Positions 52,867 through 56,991 of a stretch of DNA of 64,000 nucleotides are shown here, piece after piece. Source of the DNA: Olsenella uli DSM 7084 (GTDB lineage Bacteria; Actinomycetota; Coriobacteriia; Coriobacteriales; Atopobiaceae). Positions within the stretch are counted from its first letter, which is position 1; each line of letters begins with the position of its first letter. The notes under the pieces were generated by a model. The model was not told the DNA's origin. It was given only the letters and a program-made list of their open reading frames with translations, and did no database searches. The stretch is from positions 1 to 64,000 of the forward strand of contig NC_014363.1 in NCBI RefSeq assembly GCF_000143845.1. Reading direction: 5' to 3'. Both the position numbers and the translations under genes were made by a program.

Positions 52867-54942
52867 ATGGCTACATGCACCGAGAAGGTAAAGAACCTAG
52901 CGCTCGTGGGCCAAGGCGGCGTGGGCAAGACCATGCTGGCCGAGGCCATGCTCCATCTGACGGGCAGGACGTCCCGCCTTGGTGGGCACGCCGGCACCAA
53001 GCCCACGCTTGACTACGATAGCGAGGAAGGCGCGCGCGGCTTCTCCATCTCCACCACGATCGCCCCGGTAACGTGGGGTGGCTGCCGCATCAACGTGCTC
53101 GACGCGCCGTGCTATCCAGACTTCGTGGGCGATGCCTACGGGGCCCTGGCCGCGGCCGAGACCGCACTCTTTGTGGTGGACGCCGCCTCGGGGCCCGGCA
53201 CCATCACCACGCGCCTGTGGTATGCGGCCGAGGATCTCGACATAGCCCGTGCCCTCTTCATCAACCGCCTCGACCGCCCGGATGCGGATTGGGACACCGC
53301 TCTCCTGACGGCCCAGGAGCGCTATGGCAGCCGCCTGGTCCCCGTGACCATGCCCATGGGGTCTGGCGCTGAGTTTGGCGGGATCATCGACGTGGTGCAC
53401 ATGACAGCGCGTCACCTTGAGGACGGCAAGCCCGTCGAGGAGGAGATCCCCCCGGCGTTCCGCGACGTCGCAGAGACGGTGCGCGCCCAGCTCATCGAAC
53501 TCGTCGTCGAGGCCGATGACGATGCGATGATGGAGTACCTCGACGGAGGCACCATCGGACAGGAGCAACTCGAGGACCTTCTCGGCAAAGCGCTGGTCGG
53601 GCGCATCTTCGTCCCGGTCTTCGCGGGTTCGTGCGTGCACGAGGAGGGCGTCATCTCGCTTTTGAGCGCAGTGGCGGGGTGGTTTCCGACCATGGCTGAT
53701 TACGGGCGCGTGCCTTTGGTCAACGGAGAGGAGCTTGACATCTCGCCCGACGACGACCGACCTGTTGCCTTCGTGTTCAAGTCGTTGCAGGACGCTCAGA
53801 ACGGGAAGCTGTCCTTCGTCAAGGTGCTGGCGGGGACCGTCGCCCCGGGTGCCGAGCTCATCAACGCACGTACCCGCAAGACCGAACGCCTGGGCCATCT
53901 CTATCTGATGACCGGCCACGACATGGTCGACGTCAAGTCGGTGGCCTCGGGTGACGTCTGCGTCGTCCCCAAGCTTGACGCCATGACCGGAGACACGCTC
54001 TCCGTCACGGGGAAGGTGGAGGCGGCAGAGTTCCGCTTTCCCAACTCGCTCTACCGTGTGGCCATCGAGCCCGACCAGCGCGGCAGCGAGGGGAAGGTCT
54101 TCGCCTTCCTGGAAAAGGCCGCCGATGCCGATCCCACGCTCTCCGTCGGCCGCGACGAGGACACCGGTCAGACCATCGTCAGCGCCATCGGCGAGGCGCA
54201 GGTGTCCGTTCTGCTCGACCGTCTCGAGGATCGGGCTGGCGTGACGGCACATACCGTCAAGCTCCGCATCCCGTATCGCGAGACCATCCGTCGTGTGGCC
54301 AGCGCCCAGGGCCGCCACAAGAAGCAGACCGGAGGTGCCGGGCAGTACGGTGACTGCTGGCTGCGCGTCGAGCCCAACCCCGGGGCCGGCTACGAGTTCG
54401 TGGACGAGGTCGTGGGCGGCCACGTGCCACGCAACTTCATTCCCGCCATCGACAAGGGCGTCCAGGAGACCATGCGCGAGGGCGTCCTTGCCGGCTATCC
54501 CCTGATCGACGTCCGCTGCGCCGTCTACGACGGGTCCTACCACCCCGTCGACTCCAACGAGATGGCGTTCAAGACCGCCGCGCGGATTGGCTTCCAGAAG
54601 GCCGTGGCCCAGGCCGAGCCCGTCTTGCTGGAACCCATGGCGCACCTCAGGATCACGGTTCCCGATAGCTATGCGGGTTCCATCATGGGTGACGTGTCCG
54701 CCTCTCGCGGGCGTGTCGAGGGGATGGCCGCCGCGTCCGGCGCGGTGGAGGCCGGCCTCACCACCATCGAGGCCACCGTCCCGTACGCGGAGGTCACGGA
54801 CTATGCCACGCGCCTGCGCTCGCTCTCGCGCGGCACCGGCGAGTTCGAGATGGAGCTCTCTGGCTACGAGCAGGTCCCGCATGACGTCCAGCAGCGTCTG
54901 GCCGAGGAGTACGCGGAGCGTCGGGCCGCTGGCGACAAGTAG
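52867..54942 (+). CDS. EF-G-like protein (FusA2 type) with degenerate G domain
   Basis: A 691-aa elongation-factor-G paralogue from ATG 52867 (GGAGGA upstream). The overall EF-G layout is present: G domain, domain II (PVAFVFKSLQDAQNGKLSFVK near residue 297), domain III, domain IV with RKKQTGGAGQYGD-like RHKKQTGGAGQYGDCW, and domain V. The G motifs depart from EF-G: G1 is GQGGVGKTM where GHVDAGKTT is expected, G3 is DAPCYPDF where DTPGHVDF is expected, and G4 is NRLD where NKxD is expected. The catalytic histidine is Tyr, as in FusA2 proteins I recall, and the G3 glycine is Cys. It is probably not the translocase. Its cellular role is unknown. Confidence 0.85.
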   Translation: MATCTEKVKNLALVGQGGVGKTMLAEAMLHLTGRTSRLGGHAGTKPTLDYDSEEGARGFSISTTIAPVTWGGCRINVLDAPCYPDFVGDAYGALAAAETALFVVDAASGPGTITTRLWYAAEDLDIARALFINRLDRPDADWDTALLTAQERYGSRLVPVTMPMGSGAEFGGIIDVVHMTARHLEDGKPVEEEIPPAFRDVAETVRAQLIELVVEADDDAMMEYLDGGTIGQEQLEDLLGKALVGRIFVPVFAGSCVHEEGVISLLSAVAGWFPTMADYGRVPLVNGEELDISPDDDRPVAFVFKSLQDAQNGKLSFVKVLAGTVAPGAELINARTRKTERLGHLYLMTGHDMVDVKSVASGDVCVVPKLDAMTGDTLSVTGKVEAAEFRFPNSLYRVAIEPDQRGSEGKVFAFLEKAADADPTLSVGRDEDTGQTIVSAIGEAQVSVLLDRLEDRAGVTAHTVKLRIPYRETIRRVASAQGRHKKQTGGAGQYGDCWLRVEPNPGAGYEFVDEVVGGHVPRNFIPAIDKGVQETMREGVLAGYPLIDVRCAVYDGSYHPVDSNEMAFKTAARIGFQKAVAQAEPVLLEPMAHLRITVPDSYAGSIMGDVSASRGRVEGMAAASGAVEAGLTTIEATVPYAEVTDYATRLRSLSRGTGEFEMELSGYEQVPHDVQQRLAEEYAERRAAGDK

Positions 54943-54945
54943 GGT

Positions 54946-55023
54946 TGCAGGCAGGCGGGGCACACCGGCGGTCGGTGCGGAGCTGCTCAGGGCGTGGGCC
55001 CGCCCATCGTCGCCCTGCCTGCA
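54946..55023 (+). other. Possible long-range hairpin after the EF-G-like gene
   Basis: TGCAGGCAGG (54946-54955) is the exact reverse complement of CCTGCCTGCA (55014-55023). The 58 bases between contain further GC-rich self-complementarity (GGGC..GCCC). It could be a terminator-like structure for the upstream gene or a leader of the array. Confidence 0.4.
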
Positions 55024-55058
55024 TTGGTGTGCATCGACGTGGGCATGCGGGTTGGCGT

Positions 55059-55367
55059 GGACGTGTGGTGAACCTTTGTGAGTCGTGCGCTGGAGAGACT
55101 CACACTACCTCGCCACACGTCCATTTTTTGGGGCCTTGGGGATGGCTGGTGAACTACTGTGAGTGGCCTGAGAGGCGAGACTCACAAAGGTTTCTGTCAC
55201 GTCCGCAAAAGCGCAAAAGAGCGGACGGGAGAGGAACTTCTGTGAATTGCCCGTTGCAATTGCTCACAATACTTCCCCTCTCGTCCAGATACTGCCCGAA
55301 AGCGGATGCGTGGCGAGGTAGTGTGAACTTCTCTCGGCTCGTACTCACAAAAGATGTCCTCCCATCC
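55059..55367. repeat. Tandem array of four hairpins made of eight 26-nt inverted arms
   Basis: Arms alternate in orientation: 55059-55084 (+), 55097-55122 (-), 55140-55165 (+), 55179-55204 (-), 55223-55248 (+), 55261-55286 (-), 55304-55329 (+) and 55342-55367 (-). Every arm is 26 nt, hairpin loops are 12-13 nt, spacers between hairpins are 17-18 nt, and the hairpin period is 81, 83 and 81 bp. Read in one orientation, all eight arms share GGAYG at positions 1-5, A at position 13 and TGTGA at positions 19-23; other positions vary. Identity between partner arms is 20, 14, 18 and 15 of 26. Some non-partner arms match better, up to 21 of 26, suggesting unit-wise duplication. Loops and spacers are unrelated in sequence. 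It is not a CRISPR array. Confidence 0.9.
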
Positions 55368-55656: not shown

Positions 55657-56991
55657 ATGGACGTAGTCATCTCTGTCACCGTCACGATTCTGCTCACCAT
55701 CGTCAACGGGTACTTCTCGATGTCCGAGATGGCCCTCTCCACCGCCAAGCGCGTCATGCTCGAGCACGACAGGGACGAGGGCGACGCCAAGGCATCCCAG
55801 GCCGTCTCCGTCATGGAGAACGACACCACCTTCCTTGCGGCCATCCAGGTTGCCATCACGTTGGTGGGTTTCTTCAGCTCGGCATTTGCCGCCACGAGCC
55901 TGTCAGAGCCGCTGGGAGGCGTCCTCGCGTCCCTCGGCCTGGACGCTGCCGTGGCAGGGGGCATGGCCACCGTCCTCATCACGCTGGTGGTCTCGTACTT
56001 CTCCATCGTGGTGGGCGAGCTCGTCCCCAAGCGCATCGCCATGGCGGACGCGGAGCGCGTGGCCAAGCAGGTGGCTGGTCCCATCAGTGGCTTCTCCGCC
56101 CTCGCTCGGCCTCTCGTCTGGCTGACGTCGGCCAGCGCCGACGGCCTTTCGCGCCTTTTGGGCATCAAGTCCACCGATGACCGCCAGGATGTGTCCGAGG
56201 ACGAGATACGCTACATGGTCACCGACTCTGACGACCTCTCCGACGAGGAGAAGTCCATGATCCACGAGATCTTTGACCTAGGCGATGCCATCGCCCGCGA
56301 GGTCATGGTTCCGCGCGTTGACATGACCGCCTTGGAGGACAGCTCCACGCTGACCGAGGTCCTGGATGTCATGCGCCGCACCGGTTACTCGCGCATCCCC
56401 ATCTACCACGATGACGTGGACCGCATCGTGGGCATCGCCCACATCAAGGACCTCATCGGGCCTGTCGTGGACGACCATGCGGGGCCCTCGCGCATAAGCG
56501 CCCACCTGCGAAGCGCCGACTTCGTGCCCGACACCAAGGACATCATCCCCCTGCTCTCCGAGATGCAGACCAGCCACGACCAGATGGTCATCGTCGTGGA
56601 TGAGTACGGCGGCACGGCCGGCGTCATCACGATCGAGGACATCATCGAGGAGGTCGTGGGCGAGATAGAGGACGAGTTTGACCCCGACAACAAGTACCTC
56701 ACGCAGCTCTCGGATCGCGAGTGGCTCGTGGACGGGCGCTTCCCCATCGACGATGCCATCGAGTTGGGTTGGCCCATCGAGGACAACGAGGAGTACGAGA
56801 CCTGTGCGGGCTTCGTGCTCGACCTCGCCGACGGGCTGCCCCGCCCCGGTGACGTCTTTGCGGTCGACGGCTACACCTTCCGCGTCCAATCCATGCGCGG
56901 ACGCCGGGTTGCCATGCTGCGCGTGAGCGCGCCCGACCCCGCGACCAACGGCGAGGATGCGGCTGATGAGAAGGGCGTGGGATCCGACTAG
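55657..56991 (+). CDS. CNNM/CorC-type (hemolysin C family) membrane protein with CBS domains
   Basis: A 444-aa membrane protein. The N-terminal DUF21/CNNM domain has about four transmembrane segments (residues about 1-150, with FSMSEMALSTAK and GELVPKRIA). Two CBS domains follow (MVPRVDMTAL, YSRIPIYHDDVDRIVG; then MVIVVDEYGGTAGVITIEDI), and a C-terminal CorC_HlyC transporter-associated domain (DREWLVDGRFPIDD). Bacterial CNNM/CorC proteins are Mg2+ exporters or exporter regulators (family knowledge). AGGAGG lies about 14 bases upstream of the ATG, an unusually long spacing. It follows the repeat-bearing non-coding region. Confidence 0.9.
   Translation: MDVVISVTVTILLTIVNGYFSMSEMALSTAKRVMLEHDRDEGDAKASQAVSVMENDTTFLAAIQVAITLVGFFSSAFAATSLSEPLGGVLASLGLDAAVAGGMATVLITLVVSYFSIVVGELVPKRIAMADAERVAKQVAGPISGFSALARPLVWLTSASADGLSRLLGIKSTDDRQDVSEDEIRYMVTDSDDLSDEEKSMIHEIFDLGDAIAREVMVPRVDMTALEDSSTLTEVLDVMRRTGYSRIPIYHDDVDRIVGIAHIKDLIGPVVDDHAGPSRISAHLRSADFVPDTKDIIPLLSEMQTSHDQMVIVVDEYGGTAGVITIEDIIEEVVGEIEDEFDPDNKYLTQLSDREWLVDGRFPIDDAIELGWPIEDNEEYETCAGFVLDLADGLPRPGDVFAVDGYTFRVQSMRGRRVAMLRVSAPDPATNGEDAADEKGVGSD

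Follow-up and report, generated by a model that had tools for sequence, protein, structure and literature searches.

Among the repeats described in bacteria, the BIMEs of enterobacteria, reported to bind IHF and gyrase (PMC2817692), resemble the arrays of the oral bacterium Olsenella uli in regular spacing, alternating orientation of the units, extragenic location and an abundance of tens or more per genome. The O. uli arms differ from BIME units in not being themselves palindromic, the number of units per array is nearly fixed at 7 with a spacing held to about 1 bp and jumps of one helical turn, and the O. uli genome contains no RAYT. REPINs and GTAG-tagged REPs share with the O. uli arrays the inverted doublets, the units of about 25 bp and the species-specific families, but the O. 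uli arms carry neither a GTAG head nor an internal stem, and no IS200/IS605 transposase accompanies them. CGTC-tagged REPs, for which a dedicated transposase is likewise not known, have stems of 8-9 bp and loops of 4-5 bases (PMC3733652). About half of the O. uli arms also show CGTC at one end, on the other strand (CGTCC/CATCC), position 4 of the arm being C or T equally often; the arms, in contrast to CGTC-tagged REPs, have no stem, and neither Olsenella nor Coriobacteria is mentioned in the paper on those repeats (PMC3733652). Like MITEs, the O. uli arrays are short, non-coding and dispersed copies with sharp ends, but no single pair of terminal inverted repeats is apparent in them, the 7-arm arrays having unlike ends, nor did inspection by eye reveal a clear target duplication, and their boxes are preserved across otherwise diverged copies. 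The genome paper of O. uli VPI D76D-27C uses the words 'repeat' and 'CRISPR' once each, for a single CRISPR repeat (PMC3035265), and our literature search found no published mention of the O. uli repeat.

Single arms gave a mean folding energy of -0.4 kcal/mol against -0.6 for shuffles, with less than 1% of the arms below -3, and no internal stem or palindrome was detected in them by folding. The O. uli genome gave no match to Y1_Tnp (PF01797; IS200/IS605-like, RAYT), a domain matched in 5 of 14 genomes, and a search for an rve transposase gene in O. uli found none. Among ten genomes tested, Y1 transposases were present in the relatives G006, G040 and G041 and absent from O. uli, G054 and G055. 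The O. uli arrays work like BIMEs but are not REPs, because two features that define REPs, the internal palindrome and the RAYT gene, were both tested for and neither was found. A preliminary description of the locus had named a REP/BIME-like element mobilised by a transposase as one candidate. The BIME side of that suggestion stands, in architecture and in location; the arm-internal palindrome and the transposase, of Y1/IS200 (RAYT) or rve type, do not.

A family of phased arrays in the O. uli genome

The window, a stretch of 64,000 bp of the O. uli genome (2,051,896 bp, one contig), contains an array of 309 bp with 8 exact sites (Table 1). The preliminary description had read this array as four tandem hairpins built from eight arms of 26 nt, and its geometry was confirmed in the sequence throughout: the position and orientation of all eight arms, loops of 12, 13, 12 and 12 nt, gaps between hairpins of 17, 18 and 17 nt, a period of 81-83 bp, the boxes GGAYG, central A and TGTGA invariant in 8/8 arms, and the likeness of non-partner arms, with 21 of 26 positions identical between arms 1 and 4. 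It had also set the array apart from CRISPR and from known riboswitches. The repeats alternate in orientation and differ from one another, unlike the near-identical direct repeats of a CRISPR, and the sole Rfam match was sub-threshold and outside the window array. When up to one mismatch was allowed, 10 sites were found in the whole window against 2.25 expected from shuffles. By gene call, the array begins 116 bp past the stop codon of the EF-G-like gene, and the CNNM/CorC gene starts 289 bp beyond the array. Between this stop codon and the array lies a separate strong GC-rich hairpin (54945-55029, GCAGGCAGG..CCTGCCTGC).

Table 1. Parts of the window array (55059-55367) and its neighbouring genes
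Feature	Position	Strand	Remarks
EF-G-like translational GTPase, upstream neighbour	52867..54942	+	Pfam EFG_IV, GTP_EFTU, EFG_C
Arm 1	55059..55084	+	GGACGTGTGGTGAACCTTTGTGAGTC
Arm 2	55097..55122	-	
Spacer between arms 2 and 3	55123..55139		T-run (ATTTTTT); TTTT there common to most other arrays
Arm 3	55140..55165	+	
Arm 4	55179..55204	-	In other arrays, adjoining intervals show 10-11 bp shifts
Central divergent spacer, between arms 4 and 5	55205..55222		43-bp interval, symmetry centre of the array
Arm 5	55223..55248	+	
Arm 6	55261..55286	-	
Spacer between arms 6 and 7	55287..55303		A-run (GAAAGC); AAAA there common to most other arrays
Arm 7	55304..55329	+	
Arm 8	55342..55367	-	In 2/26 arrays only: the window array and 1706194-1706502
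CNNM/CorC transporter-associated protein, downstream neighbour	55657..56991	+	Pfam CNNM, CorC_HlyC, CBS

Across the whole genome the pattern GGAYG-N7-A-N5-TGTGA has 141 exact matches, whereas its reversed form has 0; within this genome the result disposes of the possibility, left by the preliminary description, of a one-off local duplication. With a weight matrix applied over the stretches fetched around the arrays, 164 arms were assigned to 26 arrays. A typical array is about 270 bases long and usually holds 7 copies of the 26-base site, the number of arms being 7 in fifteen arrays, 6 in five, 8 in two and 2-4 in four. The orientation of the arms alternates without exception in all 26. Convergent neighbours are separated by an interval of 39 or 40 bp in 62 of 67 cases and divergent neighbours by one of 42 or 43 bp in 68 of 71, so that the commonest 7-arm array reads, in one orientation, + 39 - 42 + 40 - 43 + 39 - 42 +.

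Eight intervals are non-modal, namely 29, 33, 50 (three) and 53 bp (three). In seven of these the departure from the mode is 10-11 bp, equal to one helical turn, and all seven flank arm 4; in the array at 696k it is arm 4 itself that has moved, by 11 bp. The interval of 33 bp belongs to a decayed 4-arm array. Because the three 50-bp intervals have a common loop sequence, the independent shifts number only about three, and the shifts may go back to a few ancestral events. Extra or degenerate arms were sought at the expected positions past the array ends and none were found, indicating sharp ends; a weak hit lying 147 bp outside the 1428k array was excluded as out of register. The positions of the arrays on the chromosome showed no significant non-uniformity.

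BLAST aligned the arrays with each other over their full length, with identities of about 66-74%, and the alignments end at the array edges. Spacers in the same register are 34% identical, against a baseline of 24% for other registers, and their GC content is 53% compared with 64% in the flanks. Across the 164 arms as a whole, conservation at the box positions is 91-100%. These figures carry an upward bias from a matrix trained on perfect boxes, but no arm devoid of boxes came to light when the arrays were extended in register. Perfect boxes are present in 134 of 151 arms of the larger arrays. Given the end-to-end alignment, the same-register likeness of the spacers and the held boxes, the arrays descend from one common ancestral array, of which nearly every arm has been kept while the spacers have become nearly saturated with changes.

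Putative platforms for sequence-specific proteins

A nucleoprotein array is expected to keep its sites while the spacers drift, and to hold its spacing nearly fixed with occasional shifts of one helical turn; all of this was found here. Together with the lack of preferential pairing between partner arms, described below, these features favour the paired protein-binding sites that the preliminary description had listed among its candidates. We propose, with a probability of roughly 0.55, that the arrays are platforms of asymmetric 26-bp double-stranded DNA sites for one or more sequence-specific proteins and act as genome-wide architectural elements. The architectural role and the identity of the putative binder are speculative, and are suggested by the location near gene 3' ends and by analogy with BIMEs. 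A single protein could read both boxes of the site, possibly with one domain for each box, or two proteins could read one box each. Neighbouring sites face each other head-to-head and tail-to-tail by turns, and their helical register is nearly fixed, so that bound dimers would stack on one face of the DNA, assembling across the alternating palindromes, while the A/T tracts in the outer divergent spacers may help DNA bending. Some 26 of these complexes, the majority of them situated shortly after the ends of genes, could then serve as loop anchors or as barriers to supercoiling or transcription spill-over, an architectural role of the kind thought to be played by the BIMEs of E. coli. If a protein does bind the arrays, about 164 sites would be occupied in a genome of 2 Mb, in an arrangement as regular as that of any BIME and in a group of bacteria for which the literature searched holds no such element, and the arrays would offer a clean system for learning how phased arrays shape chromosome topology.

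The strongest alternative is that of an old mobile repeat served by an unrecognised recombinase. The arrays would be BIME/REP-like non-autonomous elements spread by copying, their arms would bind a transposase or recombinase that has since been lost or belongs to an unrecognised class, and their present locations would be tolerated insertion sites. End-to-end homology with sharp edges, spacers lower in GC than the flanks and restriction to one species are all as expected for such a repeat, as is an extragenic location near gene 3' ends, which is reported for REPs (PMC3733652); the O. uli genome also has five Phage_integrase matches, though none of the five is linked to arrays. Weighing against it are the lack of Y1_Tnp and rve genes noted above and the array flanks, in which no clear target duplication was seen by eye. 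Among the neighbours examined, where most genes within 4 kb are unannotated, no transposase gene was seen to be flanked by an array. In addition, random loss of arms would be expected in dead copies, whereas nearly all arms of the full arrays retain their boxes. On balance we regard a mobile origin of this kind as rather unlikely.

Genomic location, base pairing and other alternatives

All 26 arrays are intergenic by our own gene calls. The genes on either side are convergent for seven arrays, co-directional for 16 and divergent for 3; of the co-directional group, 14 of 16 are nearer to the 3' end of the upstream gene (p=0.004). Divergent regions are avoided, holding 3 of 26 arrays compared with 15 of 25 control regions (Fisher p=0.0004), the control being intergenic regions of more than 300 bp in the same stretches, defined by the same gene calls and not by curated annotation. 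This preference for 3' ends is also compatible with a spreading repeat that is passively tolerated there. Genes next to the arrays have varied housekeeping functions; among them are those for DnaK, pyruvate kinase, an FGGY sugar kinase, UvrA and four tRNA synthetases. As a post hoc observation, the arrays at 897606, 1155589, 1589705 and 1648933 adjoin the Val, Leu, His and Met tRNA synthetase genes, respectively. Two arrays, at 695683-696411 and 1306499-1307230, adjoin paralogous GntR/UTRA regulator genes, one downstream and one upstream.

Multi-site operators, through which an ordinary transcription regulator would control the flanking genes, could account for a bipartite site with a TGTGA box and for the phasing of the sites, a typical operator feature, and the proximity of two arrays to GntR/UTRA regulator genes would suit them. 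However, the arrays avoid divergent promoter regions and are mostly found 50-250 bp past stop codons, seven of them between two 3' ends, the flanking genes have no pathway in common, and no sigma-70-like promoter was found in the window array. We consider operators highly improbable.

The preliminary description had also proposed a multi-hairpin RNA, that is, a 3' UTR or non-coding RNA acting through its paired arms. The region is indeed predicted to fold strongly on both strands (z -6.1 and -7.1), and the arrays stand downstream of genes; the strong folding is, however, explained by the inverted repetition of the arms, which would give it in any such set. Over the 15 variable positions, convergent neighbours scored a similarity of 7.87 compared with a between-array value of 7.52 (p 0.19 by permutation); no such excess was seen for divergent neighbours. 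Duplex energies of cognate and permuted pairs did not differ on either strand (p 0.19-0.46; about 0.2 for convergent and 0.34-0.46 for divergent neighbours). At position 4, divergent neighbours prefer C with T, against pairing, and at position 8 they show a mild preference for the same letter. By mutual information, the couplings within an arm almost all join adjacent or nearly adjacent bases, and such near-neighbour dependencies are typical of readout by a protein. The covariation expected of hairpins was thus not observed: there is no selection for base pairing between partner arms, and because partners pair no better than random arms, the hairpin reading is unsupported. Odd-numbered arrays would moreover leave one arm unpaired, the arrays have no apparent polarity relative to the adjacent gene, and the Rfam search offered no fitting family. 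From arm similarity, duplex energies and mutual information the RNA reading was rejected, and we hold it to be highly improbable. Least probable of all are terminators or bidirectional insulators made of a hairpin and a T-run, since, although most arrays lie near 3' ends and have TTTT after arm 2 and AAAA before arm 7, no terminator-like site was found in the window array, the T-run side of 7-arm arrays is not consistently the one towards the neighbouring 3' end, and pairing is not selected.

Arrays of other motifs in related species

The O. uli motif itself was not detected in relatives. The two-arm pattern, which the preliminary description had suggested searching for, occurred in 0 of 139 other genomes of the family, all of them from other genera, and the one-arm pattern with one mismatch gave no clear excess in 20 relatives. 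A profile of arms 2-4 matched O. uli alone among 299 genomes of the order and 396 of the phylum, under strict filters that can lose weak matches, and there was no match in viral contigs (3-arm pattern) or in phage and plasmid records. For a core architectural system such absence from related genera is odd, unless the motif and its protein turn over fast.

When 800 kb of DNA from relatives was scanned, with no motif preset, for chains of palindrome centres, a few candidates emerged; several weak chains, located inside open frames in GC-rich coding DNA, were discounted. The relative G055, which is among the nearest by its EF-G-like protein (87% identity), has an array of CTGTCAGAWAGTG sites in the interval that separates a tRNA-like stretch from an rph-like gene, these two features having been identified by eye. 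Three strictly alternating CTGTCAGAWAGTG arrays were located in G054 and G055 (L230:16878-17150, L287:1479-1806 and L288:1398-1795), with a divergent interval of 22 bp in 18/18 cases and convergent intervals of 18, 27-29 or 59 bp. An array other than that beside the rph-like gene stands at an orthologous locus in both genomes, where the flanks are 72-96% identical and the array only 42-65%; the sites are nevertheless kept, with 12 and 14 arms of at most 2 mismatches each. In G040 several other motif families were found, in which spacings of 31 and 41 bp recur and direct sites are mixed with inverted ones.

The arrays of G054/G055 and G040 resemble those of O. uli in that short inverted sites cluster in non-coding DNA, and their spacings are often near multiples of the helical turn. 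They differ in their unrelated motifs, in their periods and, in G040, in the mixture of direct and inverted sites. From this likeness of design we suggest that the O. uli arrays may share a mechanism with those of the relatives. A wider reading, which we put forward only tentatively, is that species of this family carry fast-evolving site-protein systems of an undescribed kind, in which each species has at least one DNA-binding protein, every such protein recognises a motif of its own, and intergenic arrays, helically phased and numbering in the tens, serve to organise the chromosome or to insulate genes, while between genera motif and protein are replaced and the array design is kept. If a protein binds the arrays, turnover of the motif between relatives would make site-protein co-evolution testable.

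A 51-bp tandem repeat in G006 (L194:3840-4200), with the palindromes CGCTTAG..CTAAGCG and TTCCCGA..CGGGAA, was rejected as an orthologous array, since its place is on the promoter side of the EF-G-like gene and it is an element of another kind. The dense G040 arrays built on CACTGCCACT/AGTGGCAGTG were located at L250:17919-18310, L251:12623-13310, L272:6677-6935 and L274:13922-14325, the one in L250 having a unit of 105 bp. A second G040 family, AAAAGCGC, with spacings of 31, 41 and 72 bp, was found at L269:5023-5310, L272:18290-18587, L273:6700-7224, L273:13744-14269 and L275:7045-7405, and none of it in a sample of G039, a genome of the same genus. At L251:12246-12411 of G040, four copies of CAGTGTACACAAA follow one another in alternating orientation with a period of 104 bp.
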